Positions 11,188-42,790 of a stretch of DNA of 64,000 nucleotides are shown piece after piece. The translations under genes were made by a program, and so were the position numbers. Source of the DNA: Rhodobacterales bacterium LSUCC0031 (lineage in GTDB: Bacteria > Pseudomonadota > Alphaproteobacteria > Rhodobacterales > Rhodobacteraceae); contig WVSP01000002.1 of NCBI GenBank assembly GCA_015689735.1, forward strand, positions 434,001-498,000, written 5' to 3'. Every line of letters begins with the position of its first letter. The first letter of the stretch is position 1. The notes beneath the pieces are model-generated. The model searched no databases, was not told where the DNA came from, and saw only the letters and a list, made by a program, of their open reading frames with translations.

Positions 11188-12276
11188 TCAGGAAATGCGG
11201 ATACGCGGGTTGAGGTAAACATAGCCGATGTCCGAGATCAGTTGTGTCACCAGAACCACGAAAACAGCCACGACCGAGCAGGCCAGTAACAATTCAATGT
11301 CATTGTTCGATGCGGCCTGCACCAAGGTCCATCCAAAGCCATTGTAGTTGAACAAGGTCTCGACGATCACGACGCCCGTCAAAAGCCACGGGAATTGCAG
11401 CATGATCACGGTAAAGGGCGCGATCAGCGCATTGCGCAGCGCGTGCTTGAGCACGATGTTGCGAAAGCTGACACCCTTGAGGCGCGCGGTGCGGATATAT
11501 TGCGCCGTCATCACCTCCGCCATCGAGGCGCGGGTCATCCGGGCGATATAACCCATGCCGTAAAAGGCGATGGTCATCACCGGCAAGGTGAAATTCCAGA
11601 AATTCGCCCCGTCCATCGCGCTGCGCGCAGAGCCAAGGAACAATGTCCCGCCATCCAGCCAGCCCCATTGCACAAGTAGGGGTGAAATCCCGGTCTGCGA
11701 CGAGGCCAAGAGCACGATGAAGATCACACCCGACACATATTCCGGTGTTGCAGTCGTCCCGATCGAGAATGTGGACAAGACACGGTCCGTGCGGCTGCCC
11801 TCGCGCATGCCGGCCAGCACACCAACCAAAAGCGCAGATGGCACGATCACGGCGAAGGCCCAGAACATCAGCACGCCGGTCAGTGCCAAGCGACCGCCGA
11901 TGATATTGGAGACCTCGTCATCCGACACGGTGGAATGGCCCAGATCGCCTTGCAATAGCCCGCAAAAGCGCGGCGCGGTTTCGGGTGTGTCGCCCGGCCC
12001 GAGGCAACGCCCCCGCCACTGGCCTGTCGGTGCGTCCAGGCGCACCCAGCCCGGCACCACGCCCAGCCATTCGCCGTAGCGCATGATCAAGGGGCCACCA
12101 TAGCCATTGCGATCGAGCCACGAGACGACCTCGGCATCGCTCATCCTTGCATTGCCTTGCGTCTTGGCAAGCTTTTCCAGGTTGGGGGCAAGATTGGTGA
12201 GGAAAAACACCACGAAGGTCAGGCAAAGCGCCGTCAAGATCATGACGCCAAAGCGGCGCAGGATAAAAAATGCCAT
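11188..12276 (-). CDS. ABC transporter permease, DppB/OppB-like
   Basis: A 362-residue permease that pairs with the DppC-like protein to form the membrane channel. It begins with the typical MAFFILRRFGVM helix, and the C-terminal half has the EAA-loop region ASMAEVMTAQYIRTARLKG and ALRNALIAPFTV. A periplasmic stretch at roughly 80-130 is longer than usual and contains two Cys residues (WRGRCLG and RFCGLLQ) that could form a disulfide. The gene lies 145 bases after the binding-protein gene, beyond a stable hairpin. Confidence 0.9.
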   Translation of the reverse strand: MAFFILRRFGVMILTALCLTFVVFFLTNLAPNLEKLAKTQGNARMSDAEVVSWLDRNGYGGPLIMRYGEWLGVVPGWVRLDAPTGQWRGRCLGPGDTPETAPRFCGLLQGDLGHSTVSDDEVSNIIGGRLALTGVLMFWAFAVIVPSALLVGVLAGMREGSRTDRVLSTFSIGTTATPEYVSGVIFIVLLASSQTGISPLLVQWGWLDGGTLFLGSARSAMDGANFWNFTLPVMTIAFYGMGYIARMTRASMAEVMTAQYIRTARLKGVSFRNIVLKHALRNALIAPFTVIMLQFPWLLTGVVIVETLFNYNGFGWTLVQAASNNDIELLLACSVVAVFVVLVTQLISDIGYVYLNPRIRIS

Positions 12277-39080: not shown

Positions 39081-39907
39081 GCACAACGTGGCAAGGGATC
39101 CCTGATCGCGCGCCCGAGCCGCTTGGCCCGGCGGATTGGCTCCGGGTGGTTGCGCGCGGCCTGCCGCTTTTGGCCCTTTTGATGATCTGTTTTCCGACAC
39201 TCCTGCTATTGCGCTTGCCCGAACGCGCCATTTTTGGCCTGAACCGCCCGTTCACGCCGCAGATCACGCGCTTTGTGTGTCTCAATGCCTGCCGTATCCT
39301 TGGGCTTGAGCGGCAGCAGCGGGGGCAGCCCATGCGCGGGCAGGGGGCTTATGTCGCCAATCATGTCAGCTGGCTCGATATCTTCGTATTGAACGCGGGA
39401 AAGCCACTCTATTTCGTCGCCAAGTCCGAAGTGGCTGGCTGGCCGGGGATCGGGTGGCTGGCGCGCGGGACCGGCACCGTCTTCATCGATCGCGACAAGC
39501 GGCAAGCGGCTGTCCAGACCCGACTTTTCACCGCGCGTTTGCGGGCGGGTCATCGGCTTTTGTTTTTCCCGGAAGGAACGTCGAGCGATGGGCTTCGGGT
39601 CTTGCCCTTCAAGACCACGCTGTTCCAAGCCTTTTTCAGCGACGCTTTGCATGACGTGGCGCAGATCCAACCCGTGACGCTGCTCTATCATGCGCCGCAA
39701 GGGACCGATCCGGGGTTTTACGGCTGGTGGGGTGACATGGCGCTTGCGCCTGCCATCCTCGCCGTTTTGGGGGCCGCGCGGCAAGGCGCGGTCGAGGTGA
39801 TCTATCATGACCCGCTGAAGGTGAGCGATTTTACCGATCGCAAAACCTTGGCGGCAACCGCCGAAGCAACGGTTCGTCGTGGATTGCCGCCCAATCTACA
39901 GGGTTAA
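39077..39907 (+). CDS. olsA: Lyso-ornithine lipid O-acyltransferase
   Basis: A 276-residue PlsC-type acyltransferase. The catalytic motif NHVSWLD is at 95-101 and the second motif FPEGTSS at 164-170; a membrane helix (about 28-46) precedes them. By position behind olsB it adds the second acyl chain to lyso-ornithine lipid, though such enzymes can also act on lysophosphatidate. Its stop shares TTAA (39904-39907) with convergent bdhA. Confidence 0.88.
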   Translation: MSTTWQGIPDRAPEPLGPADWLRVVARGLPLLALLMICFPTLLLLRLPERAIFGLNRPFTPQITRFVCLNACRILGLERQQRGQPMRGQGAYVANHVSWLDIFVLNAGKPLYFVAKSEVAGWPGIGWLARGTGTVFIDRDKRQAAVQTRLFTARLRAGHRLLFFPEGTSSDGLRVLPFKTTLFQAFFSDALHDVAQIQPVTLLYHAPQGTDPGFYGWWGDMALAPAILAVLGAARQGAVEVIYHDPLKVSDFTDRKTLAATAEATVRRGLPPNLQG

Positions 39908-40689
39908 AGCGCGGTCCAGCCGCCATCGACGCTGATCGTGGTGCCGGTGATCTGGGCGGCGGCGTCAGAGCACAAGAACACCGCCGTGCCGCCCATCTGT
40001 TCCACGGTCGCGAAATCGCGCGAAGGTTGGCGCGCCAGCATCACTTCGCGCACCACGGTGTCACGGTCCATGTTGTGGGTCTTCATCTGATCGGGGATCT
40101 GCGCCTCGACCAAGGGGGTCAGCACATAGCCGGGGCAGATCGCATTCGCGGTGATCGGCTCTTCGGCGGTTTCCAGTGCTGTGACCTTGGTCAGCCCGAC
40201 GATGCCGTGCTTGGCCGCGACATAGGCCGATTTGAACGGGCTTGCGGTCAAGCCATGGGCGGAGGCGATGTTGATCACGCGACCCCAGCCAGCCGCGCGC
40301 ATCAGGGGCAGGGCGGCCGCCGTGGTGTGAAAGGCCGATGACAAGTTGATCGCGATGATCGCATCCCATTTCTCGGGCGCGAAATCGGGAATGGCCGCCA
40401 CATGCTGAATGCCCGCATTGTTGACCAGGATATCACAAGCCCCCGCTTGGGCGATGAGCGCGCGGCAGGCCGCACCATCCGACATATCGGCGGCGATGTA
40501 GCGGGCTCTGACGCCATGGGTTGCCGCAAGCGATTCGGCCAAGGCGTGATCCTCGGGGCGATCAGTGAATGAATTCAGAACTACGTCGGCCCCTGCACGT
40601 GCCAATTCCTGCGCGATTCCAAGGCCAATTCCGGAATTCGAGCCGGTAATAATCGCTTTTTTGCCGGCAAGATCGGTGGTGATGGACAT
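39904..40689 (-). CDS. bdhA: 3-hydroxybutyrate dehydrogenase
   Basis: A 261-residue short-chain dehydrogenase. TGSNSGIGLG at 15-24 binds NAD, NNAG is at 90-93, and the catalytic residues are Ser143, Tyr156 and Lys160 (YVAAK). The substrate-specific features GIQHVAAI, ICPGYVLTPLVEAQIPDQ and TISVDGGW fit the bacterial D-3-hydroxybutyrate enzyme, which oxidises the product of polyhydroxybutyrate breakdown to acetoacetate. The start at 40689 has AAGGA upstream; the candidate small RNA and its terminator lie 92 bases further upstream. Confidence 0.9.
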   Translation of the reverse strand: MSITTDLAGKKAIITGSNSGIGLGIAQELARAGADVVLNSFTDRPEDHALAESLAATHGVRARYIAADMSDGAACRALIAQAGACDILVNNAGIQHVAAIPDFAPEKWDAIIAINLSSAFHTTAAALPLMRAAGWGRVINIASAHGLTASPFKSAYVAAKHGIVGLTKVTALETAEEPITANAICPGYVLTPLVEAQIPDQMKTHNMDRDTVVREVMLARQPSRDFATVEQMGGTAVFLCSDAAAQITGTTISVDGGWTAL

Positions 40690-40780: not shown

Positions 40781-40809
40781 AAAAAAAACGCCGGCACAAG
40801 GCCGGCGTT
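40781..40809 (-). terminator. Intrinsic terminator of the candidate small RNA
   Basis: Perfect 9-bp stem (40787-40795 with 40801-40809) followed on the minus strand by eight T (40781-40788, partly paired). This is one of the strongest terminators in the window. Confidence 0.85.
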
Positions 40810-40856
40810 CAGTTATTGAGGCAGGTTTCATACAGGCAAGAAACCTATCGAGCAGT
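40781..40856 (-). ncRNA. Candidate small RNA (about 76 nt) or bdhA leader attenuator
   Basis: Read on the minus strand, this stretch begins about 7 bases after a near-consensus promoter and ends in a strong intrinsic terminator. It contains two perfect hairpins. The first is AGGTTTC/GAAACCT around a 10-base loop (40823-40846). The second is AACGCCGGC/GCCGGCGTT around 5 bases (40787-40809), followed by T8. No open frame of note fits. There is no minus-strand gene upstream that the terminator could serve, so it most likely ends a free-standing small RNA. It could instead be a regulated leader of bdhA, which starts 92 bases downstream. No known RNA family is recognised by eye. Confidence 0.55.
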
Positions 40857-40862
40857 GGCACC

Positions 40863-40891
40863 TTTATAAGCAATGGCATGACCCTTGTCCA
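40863..40891 (-). promoter_or_regulatory. Promoter of the candidate small RNA
   Basis: On the minus strand, TGGACA (40891-40886; 5 of 6 match to TTGACA), a 17-base spacer, then TATAAA (40868-40863; 5 of 6 match to TATAAT). This predicts transcription from about 40856. Confidence 0.6.
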
Positions 40892-40969
40892 ACCGAAAAG
40901 TTTGCAGTGGCGCGCGCACGGAGCTAGCCTTGGCCCAACATAACCTGAGGCAGGGGGGATTGTTCACCC

Positions 40970-42790
40970 ATGAGAACGCAGTGTTTCGTCAATCTGTTGC
41001 GTATCGCAGGCCTGTCATTGGCGACGGCCGTGGGCCTTGCAGGGGCAGGTATCGCGCAGCCGATGCATGGGATCGCAATGTATGGTGAACCAGCCCTTGG
41101 TCCGGATTTCACACATCTTCCCTATGCCAACCCCGATGCGCCGACAGGCGGGCGGATCGTGACGGGCGAGACGGGCAGTTTCGACAGCCTCAACCCGCAT
41201 ATCCGGGCGGGCTCGGTGCCGTGGCAATTGCGGCTGATTGCCTACGAATCGCTTTTGGGGCGGTCATGGGACGAGCCCTTCACGCTGTACGGTCTGCTCG
41301 CCGAATCGGTCGAGGTGGCGCCGGATCACTCCTGGGTGGAATTCATTCTTCGCCCCGAGGCACGATTTTCCGATGGCAGCCCGGTGACCGTTGCCGATGT
41401 GATCTGGTCCTACGAGACGCTCGGCACCATCGGCCATCCACGATATCTCAATGCATGGACGCGTGTCTCGGGCATCGAGGCGGTGGGCGAGCGCGGTGTG
41501 CGGATCACCTTCTCTGACCCTGACCGCGAACTTGCGATGATCATGGGGCTGCGCCCGATCCTGAAAGCCGCGCAATGGGAAGGGCGCGATTTCACCCAGT
41601 CAGGCCTCGATGTAATCCCCATCGCCACCGCGCCTTATGTCGTCGATGATTTCGAGGCGGGCCGTTTTGTCAGCCTCAAGCGCAACCCCGATTATTGGGG
41701 CCGCGATCTGCCCTTTCGACGCGGTACCAATGTGATCGACGAAGTGCGGATGGAGTTCTTCACCGACGGCACGGCGATGTTCGAAGCCTTCACGGCTGGT
41801 ATCTTGTCCACCATGCGCGAGACATCGGCGCAAGCCTGGGCCACCAATTACGATTTTCCTCGTGTCCGGTCCGGCGAGGTCGTGCTGGCCGAAGTCGCAC
41901 ATCAACGCCCCTCTGGGATGACGGGGCTGGTGATGAACACGCGGCGGGATCATTTTGCAAATTGGCATGTGCGCGAGGCGATGATCCAAGCCTTCCCAGC
42001 GGAATTCATCAACCAGACGCTCAATGGCGGGATCGATCCGCGTATCACCTCCTATTTCGCAAATTCGCCCTTGGCGATGCAGACAGGCCCAGCCGAGGGC
42101 CGCGTGGCCGATTTCCTCACGCCATTTGCGGCCGAGCTCCTGCCCGGTGCGATGGAGGGTTACGTGATGCCTGTCTCTGACGGCACCGCACGCAACCGCG
42201 CCGGGATTGTCGCAGCCCTGGCCGCGCTGGAGGCTGCGGGCTATAAGGTGCAGAACGGCGTGATGATGACCCCCGATGGCACGCCCTTTAGCTTTGACAT
42301 CCTTCTCCAGACCGGCTCGGCCGAAAACGATGCCATCATCAACATCTACTCCGAGGCGTTGGCGCGTCTTGGGATCGCCGTAACTGTCAGCCGTGTCGAT
42401 GCCGCACAATTCCGCGAACGGCGGGATGTCTTTGATTTCGATATGGTCTATGAGCGCTATGGCCTGTCGCTCAGCCCCGGCAATGAGCAATATAGCTATT
42501 GGGGCTGCGCCAGCCGCGACACGCAAGGATCGCGCAATCTGATGGGGGCCTGCCACCCTGCAATCGAGGCGTTGGTGGGCCAGATGCTCAATTCCGCGAG
42601 CCAAGCCGATTATTTGGCCGCCGTACGCGCGCTTGACCGTGTTTTGACGTCAGAGCGCTATGTCGTGCCGTTCTGGCACAACCCGGTCAGCCGCATCGCC
42701 CATCATGCCGAACTGCATTACCCCGACACCATCCCGATCTATGGCGATTGGATCGGCTGGCAGCCCGATGTGTGGTGGGTCGAAAACTAA
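40970..42790 (+). CDS. Extracellular solute-binding protein, family 5 (YejA-like)
   Basis: A 606-residue periplasmic binding protein. A signal peptide spans about 1-29 (ending AGAGIAQ). The mature part has the family-5 layout, with GGRIVTGETGSFDSLNPHI, FILRPEARFSDGSPVTVADV, FVSLKRNPDYWGRDLPF and QYSYWGC. It resembles the YejA group, which binds peptides or peptide-like molecules such as microcin C. No permease or ATPase genes are adjacent, so it either works with a transporter elsewhere or is an orphan. A purine-rich ribosome-binding region (40946-40958) precedes the ATG. Confidence 0.87.
   Translation: MRTQCFVNLLRIAGLSLATAVGLAGAGIAQPMHGIAMYGEPALGPDFTHLPYANPDAPTGGRIVTGETGSFDSLNPHIRAGSVPWQLRLIAYESLLGRSWDEPFTLYGLLAESVEVAPDHSWVEFILRPEARFSDGSPVTVADVIWSYETLGTIGHPRYLNAWTRVSGIEAVGERGVRITFSDPDRELAMIMGLRPILKAAQWEGRDFTQSGLDVIPIATAPYVVDDFEAGRFVSLKRNPDYWGRDLPFRRGTNVIDEVRMEFFTDGTAMFEAFTAGILSTMRETSAQAWATNYDFPRVRSGEVVLAEVAHQRPSGMTGLVMNTRRDHFANWHVREAMIQAFPAEFINQTLNGGIDPRITSYFANSPLAMQTGPAEGRVADFLTPFAAELLPGAMEGYVMPVSDGTARNRAGIVAALAALEAAGYKVQNGVMMTPDGTPFSFDILLQTGSAENDAIINIYSEALARLGIAVTVSRVDAAQFRERRDVFDFDMVYERYGLSLSPGNEQYSYWGCASRDTQGSRNLMGACHPAIEALVGQMLNSASQADYLAAVRALDRVLTSERYVVPFWHNPVSRIAHHAELHYPDTIPIYGDWIGWQPDVWWVEN

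Follow-up and report, generated by a model that had tools for sequence, protein, structure and literature searches.

A small RNA gene between bdhA and a solute-binding protein gene

The window, a 64,000-nucleotide stretch of the genome of Rhodobacterales bacterium LSUCC0031, carries on its minus strand a compact small RNA (sRNA) gene between bdhA and a divergent gene for an ABC transporter solute-binding protein (SBP). Features of the locus are collected in Table 1. Matches of the SBP gene product to models of solute-binding proteins all score under the curated cut-offs. The U-run at the 3' end of the sRNA may reach 40781, so that the predicted length is 72–76 nt; the first two residues of the T8 tract (40788-40781) lie inside the terminator stem. 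The antisense stretch spans part of the loop of hairpin 1, its 3' arm and the following base.

Table 1. Features of the sRNA locus, in positions of the window
Feature	Position	Strand	Remark
-35 element TTGGACA	40892-40886	minus	read directly; only TTG(G) conserved, RpoHI/HII type
-10 element TATAAA	40868-40863	minus	read directly; TAT at -12 conserved
sRNA gene, probable StsR ortholog	40785..40856	minus	72-nt transcript predicted, +1 at 40856
Hairpin 1, 7 bp AGGTTTC/GAAACCT, 10-nt loop	40846-40823	minus	read directly and folded
Antisense stretch GCCTGTATGAAACCTG, sRNA nt 20-35	40822..40837	minus	complementary to dcw/UpsM leader upstream of mraZ
Intrinsic terminator, 9-bp perfect stem + T8	40781..40809	minus	stem 40809-40787
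bdhA, 3-hydroxybutyrate dehydrogenase	39904..40689	minus	NCBIfam TIGR01963 above cut-off; ATG at 40689; neighbour, outside sRNA
ABC transporter SBP gene	40970..42790	plus	divergent neighbour

A sequence-only reading of this locus had placed a promoter here, followed by a perfect 7-bp hairpin and a perfect 9-bp terminator stem with T8 that had no other client, and had proposed a new stand-alone sRNA of about 76 bases. Promoter elements and both hairpins were read directly where it had put them, and its view of the terminator and of the compact transcript was upheld; the word "new" did not survive (see below). The 83-nt sRNA stretch folded with a z-score of -3.7, and none of 200 shuffles folded equally well. 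Terminator-like sites numbered 15 in 10 kb (8.9 ± 3.2 in shuffles), and among them the sRNA terminator had the most pairs and the most G-C pairs.

Conservation across the family

Of 295 genomes sampled throughout Rhodobacteraceae, 289 had a match to a 120-base query; among the 260 with completeness of 90% or more and contamination of 5% or less, 258 did. With a 270-base query all 13 genomes of the genus matched, the source genome included. An exact 40-base core was present in at least 118 stretches of named genomes, 80 of which were listed. Among these listed matches the titles were mostly of Rhodobacteraceae or Rhodobacterales, for example Ruegeria pomeroyi, Leisingera, Sulfitobacter, Paracoccus and Jannaschia; two were of Neomegalonema, and four named only Alphaproteobacteria. 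Four Paracoccus records have the sRNA gene on replicons of 1.5-2.2 Mb that are filed as plasmids; the loci of Paracoccus versutus and P. pantotrophus are L112 4002-4077 and L113 3002-3077.

Fifty copies were aligned, mostly the best-scoring loci: 13 from the genus, 29 from the rest of the family, six from another search and two of the four Paracoccus records. Locus L014, a copy of the source locus, was left out. Loci were cut out by an 11-base core word, which none of the 50 lacked. The first 39 nt of the sRNA were identical in all 50 of these mostly best-scoring copies; since the poorest matches of the family search were left out, invariance may be weaker among them. The conserved block begins at 40856, in agreement with the start that had been proposed, while the base preceding it varies (of 78 named loci among the matches listed, 53 have C and 24 have T).

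Downstream of this block the terminator stem was paired in 98.8% of alignment cells. Four of its nine pairs had changes on both sides in relatives, a number reached in 1 of 500 shuffles, and the covariation score was reached in none of 500. The count of further pair types was not unusual (53 of 500 shuffles). Hairpin 1 is invariant in the aligned copies, so covariation is uninformative for it. Loss of the promoter and both hairpins from relatives that keep the flanking genes had been named as the outcome to look out for; the opposite was found in the loci read. The sRNA gene is real and ancient.

Promoter type

The motif recognised by RpoHI/HII is TTG at -35 and TAT at -12 (PMC10673084). We counted bases in 78 of the 80 listed named relatives (matches totaling at least 118), namely those with at least 45 nt of upstream sequence. 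Among these the -35 TTG was kept (T in 78, T in 71 and G in 76 of 78), as was TAT at -12 (T in 76, A in 77 and T in 73), but the "ACA" that would complete TTGACA was not (A in 55 and C in 39). This pattern indicates a site of the RpoH type and not of the sigma-70 type. TTG and TAT are separated by 21 nt in the window, against 20 in most relatives among the matches listed. A sigma-70 scan did not report the sRNA promoter, which says little, because the scan demands a T ending the -10 box and TATAAA lacks it. Judged by its motif, the promoter fits the RpoHI/HII type and is better read so than as sigma-70.

Just upstream of the -35 element lies an AACTTTT box (40896-40902, minus strand), kept at -45 to -39 in most of the 78 relatives among the matches listed. 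It may bind an activator or belong to the divergent promoter.

A predicted pairing site in the leader upstream of mraZ

For comparison we used an R. sphaeroides-like genome (G063), identified by its reaction-centre M protein (100% match). Its sRNA locus (C4:1443996-1444073) lies between bdhA-like and SBP-like frames, judged from translations, and a scan for TTG-N(19-21)-TAT plus a terminator gave a 73-nt RNA there. The mraZ leader of this genome includes GCAGGCTTCATACAGGCA, a stretch antisense to the sRNA at all but one position.

We extended the comparison to 32 mraZ leaders, from six genomes of one set and 26 of 30 of another, the remaining four having no MraZ match and being uncounted. All 32 contained the pairing site, with 13-18 of 20 positions matching in an ungapped comparison, and CATACAGGC was likewise present in all 32. 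The source genome scored 14 of 20 ungapped because its target duplex has a 1-nt bulge. The antisense pattern CAGG-N(0-2)-TTCATACAGGC occurred at 60 places in the 32 genomes: 32 at the sRNA gene (every genome), 27 at the mraZ leader (27 genomes) and one elsewhere, near a contig end. The other five mraZ leaders carry near-matches, and the reversed pattern, used as a control, had no occurrence in the 32 genomes. Near-uniqueness here refers to matches to the antisense pattern.

Duplex energies were computed throughout with nt 1-45 of the sRNA. The duplex between sRNA and leader of the source genome came to -33.2 kcal/mol, and over the 32 leaders the energy was equalled in 6 of 1920 shuffles. From this conserved, near-unique site we predict that the sRNA base-pairs with UpsM and with the 5' leader of dcw, the cell-division gene cluster. 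In 30 of the 32 leaders (the source genome's own leader is L063) a further element, CGAGCAG, complementary to the sRNA 5' end CUGCUCG, follows the main site within 90 nt; it is a possible second contact with the sRNA, and any role for it is a guess.

UpsM starts 268 nt before mraZ and is 206 nt long, RNase E produces a 130-nt 3' fragment from it, and its leader is reported as conserved in Rhodobacteraceae (PMC5089854). When these distances are applied to G063, the pairing site corresponds to UpsM nt 54-71, and the size of the 130-nt fragment implies an RNase E cut at 76/77, 5 nt past the end of the site. When the site was blocked in leader folds, openness of the next 18 nt rose from 0.40 to 0.45 on average, compared with 0.39 when other windows were blocked (paired test, p about 1e-5). 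The rise exceeded 0.1 in only 5 of 32 leaders, so that this simple fold model reproduces the structural opening described in the literature weakly at best.

Identity of the sRNA

These properties point to StsR (formerly RSs0827) of Rhodobacter sphaeroides. StsR is described as a 72-nt RNA under RpoHI/HII control, named for its pairing with the sRNA UpsM (PMC8307010). Its levels rise when iron is limiting, under prolonged singlet oxygen stress and in stationary phase; the dcw leader is a further binding partner, and StsR promotes cleavage by RNase E (PMC8307010, PMC3688512, PMC3413700, PMC11354728). Because of the 72-nt length, the RpoHI/HII-type promoter and the complementarity to the dcw/UpsM leader ahead of mraZ, we take the sRNA to be probably the StsR ortholog (about 90%), a judgement by properties. 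An RNA with the properties of one already characterised in R. sphaeroides is hardly the new one that the sequence-only reading had thought probable. A text search with pieces of the sRNA sequence gave, among the matches listed, only apparently unrelated primer matches.

StsR binds Hfq and targets the rpoE mRNA near its start codon. In the G063 sequence searched, no close RpoE was found whose mRNA could serve to compare this pairing (best 28% identity), nor was there a Cupin_7 (ChrR) match. R. sphaeroides is known for its RpoE/ChrR pair, and the miss in G063 perhaps reflects a missing stretch.

The Rfam search that had been suggested for the locus returned no family at gathering threshold. A permissive search gave 16 matches there, all below gathering. 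The top one was SorX (RF02784), at 24.1 bits against a gathering score of 46.6, and it was rejected. Neither the mraZ leaders of G063 and the source genome nor the G063 sRNA locus had any Rfam match. Two other places gave matches to known sRNA families. At 11433-11611 (plus strand) the window has a strong match to Cis52_sRNA (RF02647; 132.9 bits against 56 for gathering), a Ruegeria sRNA family. Outside the window, the source genome has sub-threshold matches to SorX (43.4 bits) and SorY (55.8 bits) at G000:C2:508950-509031, perhaps a relative of these singlet-oxygen sRNAs. Neither the published sRNAs of Ruegeria pomeroyi nor those of Paracoccus denitrificans could be tied to the sRNA locus; Intergenic 60 and Intergenic 134 of P. 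denitrificans are candidate counterparts.

Alternative explanations

The same anatomy could be read as a conditional leader of bdhA, an attenuator whose terminator is read through in some condition so that the transcript continues into bdhA. Such a leader would always lie upstream of bdhA, and bdhA is indeed the adjacent downstream gene on the same strand in 51 of the 69 named relatives whose sequence extends far enough, among the matches listed. In the other 18, however, the sRNA is kept without it: bdhA is 1-2.3 kb away in five and was not found in the stretch examined in 13. The divergent SBP gene is adjacent more often than bdhA (69 of 73 named loci with enough sequence), and a T-run of at least six follows the core in all 78 testable named relatives, both again among the matches listed. 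Because of the 18 relatives, this is a stand-alone sRNA gene rather than a bdhA leader. We consider the attenuator, which the earlier reading had offered as its alternative, very improbable, while some readthrough into bdhA may occur. That promoter and hairpins arose by chance with no transcript at all is less credible still: near-perfect conservation across the family and the two-sided changes in the terminator refute it for practical purposes.

A more serious competitor, if an unlikely one, is that a different family-wide sRNA also pairs with the dcw leader and that StsR itself is encoded elsewhere. It draws on the RSs numbers. SorX (RSs2461), UpsM (RSs0682) and SorY (RSs1543) lie at 2598, 695 and 1633 kb of G063; if the numbers are gene indices along a replicon, as these positions suggest, RSs0827 would be expected around 850 kb on chromosome 1 or 915 kb on chromosome 2, away from the sRNA locus. 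Yet no RpoH-type promoter followed by a terminator was found in 140 kb around these places, and the same scan finds the sRNA locus. Several 12-base stretches complementary to the leader do lie in this sequence, as expected by chance in GC-rich DNA. The empty scan leaves the number RSs0827 unexplained. Against a separate sRNA, too, the locus fits those StsR properties that sequence can test (length, promoter type, orphan gene, UpsM pairing by the RNase E cut), and it would be strange for two RpoH-driven 72-nt sRNAs to share one partner.

Proposed role

At the level of sequence we observe the anatomy of the gene, its conservation, its promoter type, covariation in its terminator and a near-unique, conserved site in the dcw leader. 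Control by sigma factors, cleavage by RNase E and an effect on division are inferred for this organism by analogy with R. sphaeroides. On that analogy, stress or stationary phase would act through RpoHI and RpoHII to raise transcription of the trans-acting 72-nt sRNA, which would pair with the dcw leader and with UpsM, the sRNA that derives from this leader ahead of mraZ. As a result RNase E would cut more readily a short way past the site, dcw expression would fall and division would slow. The position of the pairing site right beside the RNase E cut in G063 makes such a chain, from stress and RpoH through pairing and cleavage to less dcw expression, a likely one.

The sRNA is ordinary in kind; what sets it apart is how widely it is conserved and how nearly unique its target is. 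No change was seen in the first 39 nt of the copies read, and in 32 genomes the mraZ leader is essentially the sole place besides the sRNA gene where the antisense pattern occurs. For these reasons we lean towards a broader proposal, that throughout Rhodobacteraceae StsR and the dcw leader form a near-universal brake with a single purpose, by which stress sigma factors act on cell division. On this view StsR would be dedicated to one operon instead of having many targets, and rpoE would be a lineage-specific extra. Conservation of gene and pairing site across genera of common marine and soil bacteria turns a finding on StsR in a single species into a general hypothesis on how division is stopped under stress. 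A literature search, with subscription papers mostly outside its reach, found no account of family-wide conservation of StsR. The comparison also yields an alignment for this RNA, to which Rfam 15 has no family matching at the gathering score, and points to bases for testing.

Comparison with known sRNAs

SorX of R. sphaeroides resembles the sRNA in its similar size and in being RpoHI/HII-controlled. It differs in its origin, being processed from the 3' UTR of RSP_0847 (PMC8625941), and it scores 88.8 bits at a locus of its own, at 2598 kb of G063. UpsM, the sRNA of the Rhodobacteraceae dcw leader reported as conserved in the family, is the partner RNA; it is the target, 206 nt long and upstream of mraZ, and not the RNA of the sRNA locus. 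StsR is the closest counterpart, judged by sequence. The present locus belongs to a different genus, its promoter spacer and terminator differ slightly, and its target duplex is bulged in the source genome. The two agree in a 72-nt orphan RNA, predicted here, with an RpoHI/HII-type promoter, antisense to the UpsM/dcw leader beside the RNase E cut, and the R. sphaeroides-like genome has its sRNA gene between the same kinds of neighbours.
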